From positions 1 to 32,308 of the forward strand of contig JAJPJQ010000008.1 in assembly GCA_021324155.1 (NCBI GenBank): a stretch of DNA of 32,308 nucleotides, read 5' to 3'. Both the position numbers and the translations under genes were made by a program. The notes under the pieces were generated by a model. It was not told where the DNA came from. It searched no databases and worked only from the letters and a program-made list of their open reading frames with translations. The stretch is from Pseudomonadota bacterium. GTDB taxonomy: Bacteria; Desulfobacterota; Binatia; UBA9968. Numbering within the stretch: the first letter of the stretch is position 1; each line of letters starts with the position of its first letter. Below, one piece after another: positions 26,798 through 32,308 of the stretch.

Positions 26798-27922
26798 ATG
26801 TTCGTGAAAAAGGCGCGACTCGAGAACTTCGATGACTGGGTGGATTACTTTCACGCCTGGCACGACGACATCGGCTATCCGATGGAGCTGATCGGCAACG
26901 ACTATACGTTTGAGACCAAGCTCGCCGAGATCGAGAGCAACGAGATCGAATTCGGCGACTACGCCGGCCGGCCCAAGTGGGAGAAGCTCACCGACGTTCC
27001 CGACCAGCGCATCCGCGACGCGCTCGCGCACCTGATCGAGTTCCAGGGCGATACCGAGTTCGCCTCGGTTGAGCAGCAGAGAAATCTGATCGAGCGCGCC
27101 CCGACGGACGTCGACCTGAAAAACCTCATCCGCATCAACCGCGAGGAGATGCGCCACGGCTGGCAGATGGCCTACGTCCTGATGACGCACTTCGGCGATA
27201 GCGGCAAGCGCCAGGCGCAGAATTTATTGGAGCGTCGCGCTTCGACCAACTCGCGCCTGCTCGATTCCTTCAACCAGCCGGTGCGCAACTGGCTCGACTT
27301 CTTCACCTACACGAGCTTCATCGACCGCGACGGCAAGTATCAGCTCAACATGCTGAGCCGCTCGGCCTTTGCGCCCCTCGGCCGGAGCTGCCTGCCGATG
27401 CTGCAAGAAGAGGCGTATCACCTAGCGCAGGGCAACATCGGCCTCGTTCGCATCGTCAAGGCGGGCAAGATCCCGATGCCGATTATCCAGAAATATTTCA
27501 ATAAGTGGGTCTCGACCGCCTACGACCTCTTCGGCCAGGACGAATCGAGCTCGGCGCACTGGGCCTACGTCTGGGGCTTGAAGGGGCGCTACGACGAGCA
27601 GCTCTACGATGCGCCCGCGGATATGGACAAGCTGAACGAGCTCTCGCGCGCGACCTTCTTCAAGGAAGTGAGCGCGCTCGTCGACGCGCTGAACCACTAC
27701 ATCCCCAAAGACACGCCGCGGCTCACGATCCCGAGCGACAAATTCCGCCGTTACATCGGCCAGTACGCGGGCAAGCCCTACAGCATCACGGGCGAGTTAC
27801 TATCGCAGGAGGCGTACGAGAAGCATCTCAAGGAAGTGATGCCGTCGGACGCCGACGACGAGTTCGTCATCAACATCGAGAAAGAGAAGGGCTGGATCCT
27901 CGACCCGCAGCCCGGCAGATAA
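26798..27922 (+). CDS. PaaA/BoxB-like diiron oxygenase-family protein
   Basis: 374 residues of the phenylacetic acid catabolic (PF05138) ferritin-like family. Two EXXH metal motifs are visible: REEMRH (E117, H120) and QEEAYHLA (E205, H208), with an upstream helix containing E81/E87 that could supply a further ligand. PaaA catalyses ring epoxidation of phenylacetyl-CoA and BoxB of benzoyl-CoA; this protein is longer than PaaA (~310) and shorter than BoxB (~470), and none of the partner subunits (PaaB-E or BoxA) is nearby. It may be a stand-alone relative, with the CCG iron-sulfur protein opposite as a possible redox partner (speculative). GGGGGG lies upstream of the ATG. Confidence 0.86.
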   Translation: MFVKKARLENFDDWVDYFHAWHDDIGYPMELIGNDYTFETKLAEIESNEIEFGDYAGRPKWEKLTDVPDQRIRDALAHLIEFQGDTEFASVEQQRNLIERAPTDVDLKNLIRINREEMRHGWQMAYVLMTHFGDSGKRQAQNLLERRASTNSRLLDSFNQPVRNWLDFFTYTSFIDRDGKYQLNMLSRSAFAPLGRSCLPMLQEEAYHLAQGNIGLVRIVKAGKIPMPIIQKYFNKWVSTAYDLFGQDESSSAHWAYVWGLKGRYDEQLYDAPADMDKLNELSRATFFKEVSALVDALNHYIPKDTPRLTIPSDKFRRYIGQYAGKPYSITGELLSQEAYEKHLKEVMPSDADDEFVINIEKEKGWILDPQPGR

Positions 27923-27942: not shown

Positions 27943-27981
27943 GAAAAAGCCCTGGGCGGAATTTCCGCTCAGGGCTTTTTC
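27943..27981. terminator. Bidirectional rho-independent terminator
   Basis: A 17-bp stem (27943-27959 with 27965-27981, one G-T wobble) around a 5-nt AATTT loop. The outer stem is AAAAAG on one side and CTTTTT on the other, giving a U-run for either strand. It serves the diiron gene and the convergent CCG gene, whose TGA (27969-27971) lies inside the stem. Confidence 0.9.
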
Positions 27982-29237
27982 GTTTCCAGACCGTAGGCGC
28001 GCGCGAGAATTTCGATCGGATGGACCGGCTTCTTGCCGGTCGCCTGCTGGACCTGGATTGCCGAGAGCGGGCAGTCCGACGCAGTGCACGCGTCGTCCAT
28101 CTTCATGAACTTGAAGAGCGGCCGTCCGACCTTCATCGACGCCTCGAAGTTTTCCTTCTTCACGCTCCAGCTGCCGTCGTGGCCGCTGCAGCACTGCATG
28201 CGCGCGACCTCGGCGCCCGGAATGAGCGACAGCAGCTCCTGCGCCTTGAAGCCGATGTTCTGCGCCTTCAAGTGGCAGGGCTGGTGATAGCGAATCTTGC
28301 CGACGTTCTTGTCGGAAAAATTGAGATCGAGCTTGCCGCCCTCTTTGGCCTTCACGAGATATTCAGAGAGATCGTATGTGTTGGCCGCGACGAGCTTCGC
28401 GTCTTCGGTGGGCAGGAAGCGCGGATAGTCCTGCTTCAGCATGTAGCTGCAGCTCGCGCTCGGCGCGACGATCTTGTAGCCCTGGCGCACCGCTTTCGCG
28501 AGCGACGCCGCGTTCGCCTCCATCTTCTCCAGCGCGCGCTCCATCTGGCCGACGTCGAGAAACGGCAGTCCGCAGCACTCCTGCTCGGGCACGGCGCATT
28601 CGATGCCGTTCTTCTCGAAGACGGCGACGGCCGCCTTGCCGATGTCGGGCTCGTTGTAATTGACGGTGCAGGTGTAAAACAGCGCGACCTTCTCCTCGCC
28701 TTTCCCTTTGGTGCCCGGGCGCTTGCGAAACCATTTCGCGAAGGTCTCGGCGTGATAAGTCGGCAGCAGCCGGTCGCGGTGGATGCCGAGGTATTTTTCC
28801 ATCCAGCCGCGGATGGTCGGGTTCTTGTTCGCCCAGTTGACGAGCGGGGCGAAAAAGCTCGAAAGCGTGCCGACGCGATCGGTGTCGCCGAAGAGCCGGT
28901 CGGCGAGACTGATGCCGGTCTGCTTCGCGCGGACGAGGTCGGAGCGCATCATCGTACGCGGAAAATCGATCAGCCACTCGTGCGGCGGCACGTACGGGCA
29001 GATCGGGTAGCAGAGCTTGCACTGGTAGCATTCGTCGACGACGCGCTTAACCTGCTGGTCCGTCAAGCGCTCGGGCTCGCCGAAGTTCTCGTCCATCATC
29101 TGAAACAGGCTCACGAACGACGGGCACAGCGTGTGACACAGCGTGCAGCCGTAGCAGATGTCGAAGACGCGGTTCACTTCCTTGCGCGTCTCTGCGGGAT
29201 CCCAAAACTCTTTCGATTTCGGATCGAAATTGAACAT
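27969..29237 (-). CDS. Di-cluster [4Fe-4S] protein with two CCG domains (GlpC/HdrB-related)
   Basis: 422 residues. Two ferredoxin-type clusters at the N-terminus: C28-C31-C34-C38 (CYGCTLCHTLC) and C70-C73-C76-C80 (CYQCKLCYPIC). Two CCG domains follow, with ECCGLPF and QCCSGHDGSW plus YTCTVNYNEPD and HQPCHLKAQ, as in the heterodisulfide reductase HdrB/GlpC/lactate-utilisation family. It probably passes electrons between a soluble or quinone donor and a partner enzyme, cytosolic or membrane-associated. The ATG at 29237 has GAGAGG 7 nt upstream. The promoter-like site at 29268-29296 could drive it independently of the selenoprotein gene upstream. Confidence 0.9.
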   Translation of the reverse strand: MFNFDPKSKEFWDPAETRKEVNRVFDICYGCTLCHTLCPSFVSLFQMMDENFGEPERLTDQQVKRVVDECYQCKLCYPICPYVPPHEWLIDFPRTMMRSDLVRAKQTGISLADRLFGDTDRVGTLSSFFAPLVNWANKNPTIRGWMEKYLGIHRDRLLPTYHAETFAKWFRKRPGTKGKGEEKVALFYTCTVNYNEPDIGKAAVAVFEKNGIECAVPEQECCGLPFLDVGQMERALEKMEANAASLAKAVRQGYKIVAPSASCSYMLKQDYPRFLPTEDAKLVAANTYDLSEYLVKAKEGGKLDLNFSDKNVGKIRYHQPCHLKAQNIGFKAQELLSLIPGAEVARMQCCSGHDGSWSVKKENFEASMKVGRPLFKFMKMDDACTASDCPLSAIQVQQATGKKPVHPIEILARAYGLETKKP

Positions 29238-29267
29238 CAAAAAACCTCTCGCGGTGAATTAGGCGAC

Positions 29268-29322: not shown

Positions 29323-30114
29323 TCAGCGCTCGTGGAGCAGTTCCGCCCGGAGATCTTCTTCCCACTCGCGGCCGCCGTCGGCCGGCCACTCGCAGGCGAG
29401 AGCGCGAATTTCGCCGCAATGCGTGAACAGGGGAAATTCGGCGAGCGTTTTGCGGAGGACGTCGGCATTACACGGGCGGTCGTGCGGCGGTCCGAAAGTC
29501 CTGCCGACGGGATGATCGACGAAAGCGCCGCGCGGCGGTGCGACTTGCGACATGATGTCGAGCGCGGTGCCGATCACGAGGGTGGGGATCCCGCTGCCTT
29601 CGATGATATGAGAAATGAGACCGACGGTCTCATGGCAAAACGGTCAGTAAGGAACCAACAGCGCTGCGTCAACGTCGGCGCGCCTCAGTTCTGCCGCGAT
29701 GGCAGGAGCGAGGGAGCTTTCGACTTCGTGATGGGATTTGAGGCCGCCCATGAACGAAATATGAAAGGGGGACAGAGAGCCGATAACGCCTTCATTCGCC
29801 AACGTCGCAAGCGCCGCGCGTGGAAAGACGATCTCGGGGTCCTGCCGCGGCACACGGCCGATTCCCGAGTGATGATCGATGACGATGGTTCCAGCCGCGG
29901 GATCGGACGGCACCAGGCGGTAACTGGTGTCGTCGCGCGGAATGAAAGGCGCTTGCTCGCTCGACCGCAACGCCGCGCTCGTCAGCAGCGCGACTCGCGA
30001 CTGCGCGAGCGGTTTCTCTAGCCGCTGCCATGCGGTCTTCGAGGGAGTTGCCAGCACTCTGGGCGGCTTCGGCGCGCCCGCCCGCGCCATGACCGGAAGA
30101 TATTCGAAGGCCAT
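29323..30114 (-). CDS. Selenoprotein of the glycine/betaine/sarcosine/D-proline reductase B family, Sec encoded by in-frame TGA
   Basis: 263 codons read through a single in-frame TGA at 29644-29646 (residue 157). The frame is identical on both sides. The first part has LVPSDP, VFPRAALATLANEGVIG and HISFMGGL, and the second has HETVGLISHIIEGSGIPT and FVDHPVGRTFGPPHD, a continuous match to the GrdB/PrdB-like reductase family. Read as selenocysteine, the TGA gives U157-P-F-C160, a redox UxxC motif; homologues from memory carry Cys-Pro-x-Cys there. A SECIS-like hairpin lies 18 nt downstream. PrdB, the D-proline reductase subunit, has its Sec at a similar position, but no prd/grd partner is nearby. 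Starts 9 nt after the topoisomerase VI A stop with a weak ribosome site. Substrate unknown. Confidence 0.88.
29615..29633 (-). promoter_or_regulatory. Candidate bacterial SECIS element
   Basis: In the mRNA, AUGAGACC-GUC-GGUCUCAU forms a perfect 8-bp stem with a 3-nt loop whose first base is G. The loop begins 18 nt after the UGA, inside the 16-37 nt window described for bacterial SECIS elements, and a G in the first loop positions is the known requirement for SelB binding. It lies within the coding sequence, as bacterial SECIS elements must. Confidence 0.75.
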
Positions 30115-30123
30115 GTCCGCGAA

Positions 30124-31230
30124 TCAATCCAGCCAGTCCTTCTCTTTCAATTTCCGTGGCAGGTAGGTCTTCGTCAGATACTGGAAGTCTTTATTCGCGA
30201 GCGCGTCGAGCTCGTATTTGAGCTCGCTCGTGAGCATGCGCTTGATCTCGTTTTGCCACTCTTTTTTCTGGAACCATTTATATTTCATCAGCTCCCGAGC
30301 GCGGCTGATGTCTTTGTCGTTCAGCTTGATGCCGACGTTGCGCGGCAGGCCGTAGTGGTCGGGGTCGGCGCTGGATAAGCCGATGAACTTCGCCTTCGGG
30401 ATCGCCATGCGCTGGCTCTCGAAGGCGAGGTTGATCGAGCCCTGCTTGACGACGGAGTAGATGTAATAGCCCCAAGGGTCGTTGTCGACGAGCACGTAAA
30501 CCGGCAGGTTGTATTCCTCGTGCAGTCTGCGCGCGAGGCGGCGCACGCCGCGCGGCGGCTGGCCGTTGCCGGTTAAAAGCACGCAATTGTAGCGGCGCCA
30601 GAATTTGTCCTCCGAGAGGCGGTTCCACTGCGTGCCTTTCTCGACCAGCAGGACGAAATCGGCCTTGCAGCTCGCGATCTGGAGATATTCCGGCTCGACG
30701 ATCGACGGCACCGAGTAGCCGCCCTTGCCGAGCCGCGAGCAGTCGACGCGGTCGCCGTCGTCGATGAAGACGACCGGCCCGACGATGCTGCCCGCGTTCT
30801 CCGCGCGCACGTGCAGTTCCTCCCGCAGCGCCGCGAGCGTGACTTCCAGGTCCTCGATCAGCGGGTCGGATTCGTTCTGGCTGTCGAAGGTGTTCTCGTG
30901 CGAGTCTTTGATCGTGTGCTTGGTGCGGTAGTAGATTTCTCTCAGCGAGGTGGTCAGATCGGCGCGCTGCAATTCGGCCAGCGCGTCGGCGACCAGCACC
31001 GTCTGCATGAATTTTTTCGCCATGCCGACGTTGAAAAACGAGCGCGCCTGCTTGCGCTTGCCCAATTCAATCAGCCCGCGCTTCTCGTCGAAGTTGACGT
31101 TGGCGAGGCTCCGGATCGGGATCGAGAACGTCGGGTCCTTGCTATGCTCCGCCGCGACCACGACGGTATCGGCGATGCCGATGAGCTTCTTCTCGACAAT
31201 TCCGTTCGTCTTCGCTTTTTTCTTGGCCAT
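30124..31230 (-). CDS. top6A: DNA topoisomerase VI subunit A
   Basis: 368 residues, the normal length for Top6A/Spo11-type enzymes. It makes the transient double-strand DNA break. The 5Y-CAP domain contains LREIYYRTKH with the catalytic tyrosine pair (Y100-Y101). The Toprim domain shows LLVEKG (E197) and the VDNDPWG acidic pair (D249, D251) that binds Mg2+. The flanking GYSVPSIVEPEYLQI and SINLAFESQRMAIP segments are typical. It forms the A2B2 enzyme with the B subunit encoded just upstream. Rare in bacteria compared with archaea and plants. The TGA stop is followed 9 nt later by the selenoprotein start. Confidence 0.95.
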   Translation of the reverse strand: MAKKKAKTNGIVEKKLIGIADTVVVAAEHSKDPTFSIPIRSLANVNFDEKRGLIELGKRKQARSFFNVGMAKKFMQTVLVADALAELQRADLTTSLREIYYRTKHTIKDSHENTFDSQNESDPLIEDLEVTLAALREELHVRAENAGSIVGPVVFIDDGDRVDCSRLGKGGYSVPSIVEPEYLQIASCKADFVLLVEKGTQWNRLSEDKFWRRYNCVLLTGNGQPPRGVRRLARRLHEEYNLPVYVLVDNDPWGYYIYSVVKQGSINLAFESQRMAIPKAKFIGLSSADPDHYGLPRNVGIKLNDKDISRARELMKYKWFQKKEWQNEIKRMLTSELKYELDALANKDFQYLTKTYLPRKLKEKDWLD

Positions 31231-31268
31231 AAGTGTGTCCCTTAATCCGTATTCTTGTTCGGTGATAT

Positions 31269-31330
31269 TAAAACTTCACTCAGGTTTTAAAGGATACTCC
31301 TAATCCGTTCGTCCTGAGCCTGTCGAAGGA
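31269..31330. repeat. Intergenic stem-loop and single-arm copy of dispersed palindrome
   Basis: The 195-nt gap between the topoisomerase VI genes holds TTAAAAC / GTTTTAA arms (31269-31275 and 31285-31291), a small AT-rich stem-loop. It also holds a single 26-nt arm (31305-31330, core CTGAGCCTGTCGAAGG) of the palindrome found at 755-820. ACTCTTTGAT is repeated directly, at 31330-31339 and again near 31414. The second palindrome arm is missing here, suggesting a decayed copy. Confidence 0.6.
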
Positions 31331-31425
31331 CTCTTTGATGGCTCTTTCCTTCTGGCGAGCCTCGAAATCTCGGACCACTCACGACGCGCAAAAGACAATT
31401 TAGGAGCCCGAAAGACTCTTTGATC

Positions 31426-32308
31426 CTACTTCTTTTTCTTCTTCGCGCCGCCGTCGAAGCCGAGGGTCATCTGCTTCGCCGACACGGCTTCGACCTTGGC
31501 GGGATTCTTTTTATCCGACGCCTTCGCCTTCGGCATCTTCTTGCTATCGGCCTTGGTCTTGATCGCTTTCGGCGCCTTCGACAGCTCGACGTCGATCAAT
31601 CGTTCCTGCTCGGGCGACTGCGCCGCCTCCTCGGCCGGCGGGGCTTCCGTCCGCGGGTCGCCGGCGAGCTCCGGCGCGTCGCCCTCTACGCCCTCGGGGG
31701 TGACGATAATCGAATCGGGCAACCCCTCGGGGGATTTTTTCTTCCCGAGCAGCTCGTCGACCTTCTCGCCGCCGGTTCGCTTGAGCGCGATTTTCTGGAG
31801 CTGCTGCTTCAATTTTTCCTTCGGCAGCTTGCCGCCCTTCAAACGGTTGCACGCCTCGACGACCTCTTCGATGTAGAGCTCGAAGATGTTGCGGCGGCGG
31901 AACTCGCTCTTGGCGTGCTCGCGGCGCCGGAGAAAGACGCCGAGACGCCGGCCGCACTCCTGCAGCGCGAGCTTGATCTCTTTTCTAATTTCGTCGTAGT
32001 CGGCGATCGCCTCCTTCGATTCGCTCGTGAACGGCACCCACACCGACGCCATGTGGACGAAGACGAACATCGGCCCGGCGGGGAGCGCGCCGCGGGACTG
32101 CGTCACGCCGTAGTTGCGCCAGCTCGTCTCCAGGACGGCTTTGAAGGTCGCGCACGCCGACTGCTGGTAGAGCAGCGGCACGCGGTTGGCGTAGCGGATG
32201 ACGCGCGCGAGCTCTTCGTCCTCATCGTGGCTCTCGCCCTCGGCGAGCGGCGCCTTCGGATGCTCGGGATCGGCCGCCTGTCCCGGCGCGTTGCCGTAGG
32301 CGAGCCCC
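31426..32308 (-). CDS. top6B: DNA topoisomerase VI subunit B, N-terminus beyond window
   Basis: The last ~293 residues of Top6B. ANRVPLLYQQSACATFKAV is a hallmark segment of the C-terminal transducer domain, followed by WVPFTSESKEAIADYDEIRKEI and LREH-like AKSEFRRRNIFELYI helices. The ATP-binding GHKL domain must lie beyond the right edge. After ~170 residues of transducer the protein continues into a low-complexity, Lys/Pro/Ala-rich tail ending in KKKKK, probably flexible and DNA-binding. Top6B binds ATP and clamps the captured DNA segment for Top6A. Upstream gene of the A subunit; the 195-nt gap between them is larger than usual. Confidence 0.93.
   Translation of the reverse strand, partial: GLAYGNAPGQAADPEHPKAPLAEGESHDEDEELARVIRYANRVPLLYQQSACATFKAVLETSWRNYGVTQSRGALPAGPMFVFVHMASVWVPFTSESKEAIADYDEIRKEIKLALQECGRRLGVFLRRREHAKSEFRRRNIFELYIEEVVEACNRLKGGKLPKEKLKQQLQKIALKRTGGEKVDELLGKKKSPEGLPDSIIVTPEGVEGDAPELAGDPRTEAPPAEEAAQSPEQERLIDVELSKAPKAIKTKADSKKMPKAKASDKKNPAKVEAVSAKQMTLGFDGGAKKKKK

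Follow-up and report, generated by a model that had tools for sequence, protein, structure and literature searches.

A predicted PrdB-like selenoprotein, encoded across an in-frame TGA, that probably acts without the partner subunits of proline and glycine reductases

The window analysed here (the whole stretch of 32,308 nucleotides) carries on its minus strand a gene that standard annotation would split or call a pseudogene: read through a single in-frame TGA, it encodes a PrdB-like protein in which that codon, to judge from its sequence context and its conservation, is almost certainly decoded as selenocysteine (Sec), so as to give a genuine bacterial selenoprotein. Current labels would make the product a proline or glycine reductase, but the genome evidence fits neither label: the sel genes and a SECIS hairpin are present, and the partner subunits are not found. 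Because these partner proteins are missing, a different reaction is probable, and we propose that the protein is probably a stand-alone selenol reductase rather than a D-proline or glycine reductase. The explanation as a whole, which combines Sec decoding, a partner-free PrdB-like protein and a selenol mechanism, strikes us as likely. The features of the locus are:

29323 to 30114, minus strand: gene of the PrdB-like selenoprotein (263 residues; start ATG, 30114-30112; terminal TGA, 29323-29325)
29644 to 29646, minus strand: in-frame TGA, the predicted Sec codon (U157)
29635 to 29637, minus strand: codon of C160, the second residue of the UxxC motif
29615 to 29633, minus strand: predicted SECIS hairpin (8-bp stem, GUC apical loop, 18 nt from the UGA to the loop)
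29644 to 30114, minus strand: N-terminal ORF of 156 aa, starting at ATG and ending at the Sec TGA, which a standard caller would report
29323 to 29577, minus strand: C-terminal ORF of 84 aa, starting at GTG, which a standard caller could report
30124 to 31230, minus strand: upstream neighbour, DNA topoisomerase VI subunit A (family-confirmed; stop TGA)
27969 to 29240, minus strand: downstream neighbour, a GlpC-like Fe-S/CCG-domain protein

Reading the TGA as Sec yields one frame of 263 residues, with LLVPYUPFCHETVG around U157 and C160 and the terminal TGA as its only stop. An earlier, sequence-only reading of this DNA had proposed that two same-frame minus-strand ORFs are joined by one TGA, that U157 lies three residues before C160 in a UxxC motif, and that the 263 codons contain no further stop; the ORF coordinates and the joined translation agree with all of this. 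The stop of the topoisomerase VI subunit A gene is 9 nt from the start of the selenoprotein gene, and what ties that gene and the GlpC-like gene to the selenoprotein gene is adjacency only. A 251-aa ORF beside the topoisomerase VI subunit A gene (30124-32181, minus strand) resembles, by eye, the C-terminal part of the B subunit. Near the GlpC-like gene lies a BoxB-like protein (26798-27922, plus strand) that scores 239 bits with TIGR03225, against a cut-off of 499, and passes the cut-off of PF05138. A scan of the window against Rfam at the gathering threshold returned no match.

The claim that family similarity continues unbroken across the TGA is upheld by the TIGR04483 (PrdB) profile, which matches residues 23-243 at E 3.2e-33; the score, 115.2 bits, compares with a curated cut-off of 300, and two true PrdB proteins run as controls reached 422.6 and 399.7 bits. 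NCBIfam (June 2026) holds no named family closer than PrdB. The GrdB-type models give 28-30 bits (TIGR01918: 29.8 against a cut-off of 65.45), and PF07355, whose cut-off is 22, reaches 20.5 bits, over residues 89-154 only. The proposed GrdB/PrdB-family placement accordingly holds at the level of the superfamily, but not at that of the PrdB, GrdB or PF07355 families, whose cut-offs are not reached: on sequence similarity, which crosses the Sec column, the protein is a member of the PrdB/GrdB superfamily in the broad sense.

The TGA recurs throughout the relatives. Besides the window gene, our search of 35 genomes of the order returned 15 full-length relatives (identity 43-71%), all of which have a single TGA, in the same column as U157. 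A profile search (alignment A2) of 395 phylum genomes gave at least 116 matches, some of GrdB length, in at least 93 genomes; these counts, like those of the PF09338 and PrdA searches of the same 395 genomes, are lower bounds, since the phylum set was sampled and no more than a few candidates were scored per genome. At least one in-frame TGA occurs in 114 of the 116 matches, its column having been checked only in the loci fetched; there, TGA stands at the Sec column in 28 of 29 (L080-L108). The exception, L102 of genome G392, has GGA at this column with the hairpin still intact, and represents either a recent mutation or a sequence error, while the second phylum match that has no TGA spans only positions beyond the Sec column. 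The motif is UxxC in 41 of 46 aligned sequences and UxxD in five. In a sub-clade with UPLDH (L086, L089, L093, L097 and L098), Asp replaces the second Cys, and the TGA and the hairpin are kept. Genome G025 has, in addition to the main gene, a divergent second paralogue that also contains a TGA (L065; contig C270, 4583-5350; 32% identity).

As the sequence-only reading had anticipated, relatives have Sec in alignment column 157, and one homologue has Cys there. Its expectation that homologues use Cys here is met by the one Cys homologue examined, from Roseomonas, but Sec is far commoner than Cys in this column, and one sequence has Gly. With the single protein as query the contig search gave no relative, and with protein alignment A1 it gave seven loci; A1 omits L034 (frameshifted) and L035 (contig end), and L043 and L044 have no local tblastn match. 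The phage records searched had no match.

The hairpin after the TGA, which the sequence-only reading had not mentioned and which strengthens its selenoprotein claim, has the shape of a bacterial SECIS element. The bacterial SECIS model quoted in PMC13188914 has a loop of 3-9 nt, a stem of 4-16 bp and a UGA spacing of 16-37 nt; a G stands at one of the two leading loop positions, and G or U usually comes next. The hairpin, with its 3-nt GUC loop, 8 bp and 18 nt, agrees with these loop, stem and spacing limits and with the leading G. We aligned, gap-free, the 54 nt from the TGA on in 46 sequences (45 distinct; 18 from the order and 28 from the phylum), with L034 included and L102, which has GGA at the column, left out. 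The stem pairs columns 14-21 with 25-32 (alignment A3), 95.0% of cells are paired across the 46 sequences, and G22 and T23 of the loop are invariant. The pair adjoining the loop is absent in 13 of 45 sequences, and pair 21-25 is open in eight sequences of family f3, which have a five-base loop.

Both sides have changed in four of the eight pairs: C-G/G-C, U-A/C-G, U-A/A-U and, in one sequence, G-C/A-U. The covariation score is 0.388, as against 0.149 +/- 0.017 in 500 shuffles, none of which reached it, and a maximum of 0.071 after sliding, and RNAalifold, unprompted, finds the same helix with seven pairs. Two of five covariation measures are not clearly distinct from shuffles; four doubly changed pairs were reached by 17 of 500 shuffles, and the pair-type count is no higher than in shuffles, 485 of 500 of which matched it. 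The stability of single genes, set against synonymous-codon shuffles, gives a weak signal: p<0.05 in 6 of 18 sequences, with p = 0.007 for the window gene and 0.05-0.34 in the 12 above threshold. A folding more stable than the hairpin occurs in 42 of 252 windows along the same gene. The argument for the hairpin rests on the alignment-level covariation test.

The machinery for Sec insertion is encoded in the same genome, where the sequence-only reading had proposed to look for it: selA (603 bits), selB (412 bits; cut-off 242), selD (398 bits) and selC, the tRNA-Sec (74.8 bits; gathering 47), were found by profile matches and ARAGORN, which reports a tRNA-SeC with anticodon tca. All four are on contig C16. 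The selD gene (L017:6186-7247, minus strand, contig C16) itself contains a TGA, in the motif GUAAK, and the start given by the ORF finder lies 3' of it; we take this Sec near the N-terminus to be in the usual active-site position. Two formate-dehydrogenase-like genes also have an in-frame TGA (RVUHSSS and RIUHSSS); their frames span 1110 and 1109 aa and score under the family cut-off:

C48:68054-68842 of the same genome (G000), minus strand: formate-dehydrogenase-like TGA gene L111, with a predicted hairpin after it
C38:11049-11870 of the same genome (G000), minus strand: formate-dehydrogenase-like TGA gene L112, with a predicted hairpin after it

Across the order, selB is present in 29 of 35 genomes. 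It is not matched (E<=1e-60) in G020, G024 and G033, each of which has a TGA-containing PrdB-like gene; these genomes are 93%, 94% and 84% complete, in 620-790 contigs. Four genomes (G014, G023, G027 and G028) have selB with no match to the PrdB-like protein, PF09338 or GrdA, so the sel genes are not kept for the PrdB-like gene alone.

We hypothesize the following course of events. UGA157 would be read as Sec because the downstream hairpin recruits SelB carrying Sec-tRNA (selC); SelA would make this Sec-tRNA, using selenophosphate that SelD supplies. The resulting short PrdB-like protein of the GrdB/PrdB superfamily would work without a PrdA/GrdE-type subunit and without GrdA. Its U157 selenolate, adjacent to a helix N-terminus within an alpha/beta domain of Rossmann-like type, would attack a small substrate; C160 would then resolve the intermediate to a selenenyl-sulfide, which a dithiol donor, e.g. 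thioredoxin, would re-reduce. This Se-S resolving step cannot be general, given the UxxD motif in five of the 46 sequences. As for the proposed reductase chemistry, we put its chances at about even. The word 'reductase', which the sequence-only reading also used, rests on the superfamily and the UxxC motif; the partners that define PrdB and GrdB were not found in the genome.

An AlphaFold2 model built from seven sequences, with residue 157 as Cys (pLDDT 77.9, pTM 0.81), folds as an alpha/beta domain; its strand 150-154 runs into helix 158-173, which places U157 next to the predicted N-terminus of the helix. Foldseek found no match in the PDB at E<=0.001 (best E 5.0e-3, with low TM-scores), and the best E in a sequence search of solved structures was 0.078. 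The best VIA-align Z, 8.6, with LacI-type folds, is barely above the 7 to 8 that is this tool's typical best for models with no clear match, and we therefore claim no function from the fold.

The neighbouring genes offer a lead on the substrate in one lineage. Two tandem TctC-like genes lie 3' of the gene, on the same strand, in all eight scorable relatives of the same family (genera g7, g9 and g13; L064, at a contig end, was left out of the neighbour scoring). For the pair of L049, the only one scanned against Pfam, one gene exceeds the TctC cut-off (32.2 against 27 bits) and the other has no Pfam match; the two are 51% alike. In these same-family relatives the TctC-like receptors encoded next to the gene would perhaps capture a small carboxylate that serves as the substrate. 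TctC-like genes do not adjoin the gene in the f3 relatives (L055-L062), and TctC, VOC and OCD queries had no match in the window, so the TctC link is a lead for one lineage and no rule. All eight f3 relatives have a glyoxalase-superfamily gene near the PrdB-like gene, and seven of them an ornithine-cyclodeaminase-like gene within 3 kb; the contig of the eighth ends first. Some f3 loci also contain, by eye, xanthine-dehydrogenase-like genes. No common neighbour was seen across the 29 phylum loci, where the largest flanking ORFs were compared by eye.

The protein might instead be a selenoprotein that keeps the PrdB fold but is no reductase, e.g. a redox sensor, a peroxidase-like protein or a selenium store. 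Such a role would suit the failure to find partner proteins, a common neighbour across the phylum or an informative structural relative, as well as the Asp that replaces the second Cys in five of 46 sequences. We nonetheless consider it unlikely, as the UxxC of the other 41 and the many residues invariant across the order suggest an active site, and the characterised members of the superfamily, GrdB and PrdB, are described in a review as parts of reductases, for reductive deamination or ring cleavage.

Whether the partners are truly missing bears on the more conventional reading, in which the protein is PrdB of a D-proline reductase, or GrdB of a glycine, betaine or sarcosine reductase, and its partner was missed. 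The genome has no match to PF09338 (the GrdE/GrdG/PrdA type; E<=0.001), to GrdA (PF04723) or to PrdA (TIGR04480); in a sensitivity control, PF09338 detected known PrdA at 79 and 92 bits. The window is contig C1 of this genome (G000), a MAG of 4.80 Mb in 53 contigs that is 98.1% complete and 3.3% contaminated, figures that leave some room for an overlooked partner or a foreign contig.

In the order, PF09338 is present in 28 of 35 genomes and GrdA, with an in-frame TGA, in 24; G026 alone has 27 PF09338 matches and G024 has 9, and a TGA-containing GrdB-like match is often close to these many GrdE/GrdG-type genes. Judged by their sequences, these order relatives carry selenium-dependent glycine/betaine-reductase-like sets; a single literature search returned no paper on the group. 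Among 16 other order genomes (those of the 15 relatives, and G020), only G009 and G010 have a PF09338 gene on the contig that bears the PrdB-like gene. These two assemblies consist of 1 and 4 contigs, and in them more than 260 kb separate the PrdB-like gene from the closest PF09338 gene. The remaining contigs often measure just 5-20 kb, which makes the off-contig evidence weak.

In the phylum, PrdA exceeds its cut-off in none of the 395 genomes. PF09338 occurs at E<=1e-20 in 17, and the 15 genomes with weaker PrdA matches (E<=0.001) fall within these 17. Among the 93 genomes with an A2 (PrdB/GrdB-like) match, PF09338 at E<=1e-20 is found in 12 and absent in 81; leaving out GrdB-length matches, 79 genomes have at least one match in a frame of <=400 aa, and four of these have PF09338 (manual reading). 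Neither PrdA nor GrdE was found in flanks of about 1.5 kb or less at the 29 phylum loci; PrdA showed at both control loci of true prdB. Our tree, which has an arbitrary root and long branches for L065 and L077, unites the 16 order sequences (100/100) and, separately, the three true PrdB (100/100); the latter join 11 other phylum rows (99/96), apart from the sequences of the order.

A PrdB or GrdB with a missed partner accounts well for several of these points: the best named family is PrdB (TIGR04483, 115.2 bits), the Sec aligns with that of true PrdB, many order relatives carry PF09338 and GrdA, and an ornithine-cyclodeaminase-like gene lies within 3 kb in seven of eight f3 loci. It is still quite improbable in our view, for the score is far under the 300-bit cut-off that true PrdB proteins pass at 423 and 400 bits, PF09338, GrdA and PrdA are unmatched in a genome that is 98.1% complete, no phylum genome has PrdA over cut-off, and true PrdB groups with the 11 other phylum rows and not with the order's sequences; the lack of PF09338 on the gene's contig, or its distance of more than 260 kb in G009 and G010, adds weakly to this because of the short contigs. 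We think it probable that the selenoprotein acts alone, with neither a PrdA/GrdE-type subunit nor GrdA. In the known reductases, a carbonyl or pyruvoyl group of the partner subunit binds the amine substrate. With no such carbonyl-bearing partner to activate amines, the protein probably does not take an amino acid as its substrate in the manner of the Stickland reductases.

Two readings that dispense with Sec have next to no probability left. A lone TGA in an open frame could come from a single base change, whether in a decaying pseudogene or as a sequencing or assembly error for TGC or TGT, and G392 (L102) has GGA where relatives have TGA; but the 15 full-length relatives from the order and 28 of the 29 phylum loci fetched share the TGA, dN/dS in nine chosen pairs (dS is high in some) stays well below 1 both ahead of it (0.10-0.25) and beyond it (0.07-0.33), the hairpin covaries and the sel gene set is complete, and decay or error is effectively refuted for the family. 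The frame would also be open under any code that gives TGA a residue, in the style of codes 4 or 25, but genome-wide reassignment is contradicted by the tRNA-Sec (anticodon tca), by SelB, by the SECIS hairpin after the TGA and by the TGA stops that end 8 of 24 window ORFs taken as genes, as well as the selenoprotein gene itself, which indicate that TGA is not generally reassigned.

If proteins of this kind do act alone, the PrdB labels of metagenomes overstate Stickland metabolism, and an uncharacterised selenoenzyme would be common in Binatia and related groups. We advance more tentatively, at a little below even chances, a wider proposal: that a widespread branch of PrdB/GrdB without partners forms a separate functional class, selenol reductases of one subunit that need no pyruvoyl-type partner and act on substrates other than amines (small carboxylates brought by TctC-type receptors in some lineages), and that many environmental 'D-proline reductase PrdB' are such an enzyme and not the Stickland proline reductase. 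In the literature covered, which did not extend to the relevant papers PMC12013261 and PMC9879109, we found no account of partner-free PrdB-like proteins or of any Binatota selenoprotein; selenocysteine appeared together with Binatota only inside a reference title, and there was nothing on a Binatota glycine reductase. Neither GrdB or PrdB nor proline reductase or Binat is mentioned in the deep-Sep paper. Such sequences may be included in the groundwater MAGs surveyed by Deng et al., a study cited in a review.

Set beside known systems, the protein is most readily compared with PrdB of Terrisporobacter, Enterococcus and Ligilactobacillus (241 aa, against 263 here), to which it is 29-30% identical over 83-85% of the length, with Sec in the same alignment column and a Cys three residues on. 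It differs in its motif, which is UPFC here and UGTC in PrdB, and in its company: the three true prdB genes adjoin prdA, whereas its own genome has no PrdA match. GrdB, GrdF and GrdH (PF07355, TIGR01917, TIGR01918, NF040794 and NF040795) share local similarity with it over residues 90-226, including the Sec column; the GrdB-type profiles, however, are about 430 residues long, all of their cut-offs lie above its scores, and neither GrdE/GrdG (PF09338) nor GrdA is matched in the genome. The 'selenoprotein B family protein' of Roseomonas haemaphysalidis (WP_207415257.1; L077), whose place in the tree is unsure because of its long branch, is 33% identical and has CPVC at the position of UPFC. Unlike the window protein it has Cys at the Sec column, and three of its eight stem pairs are broken (hand count). 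No PrdA or GrdE match lies in the 12.6 kb around it. Finally, the Sargasso Sea and GOS data contain selenoproteins named 'Proline reductase PrdB', which are UxxC selenoproteins with the same family assignment. They number 42 and 235, against 1 and 5 for GrdB, and the accessible portions of the two papers (PMC1088965, PMC2398784) label these metagenomic UxxC sequences PrdB and do not discuss PrdA partners. UxxC selenoproteins with the PrdB label, long known from ocean metagenomes, are some of the most frequent there, so that the protein described here would be a selenoprotein of a known kind.
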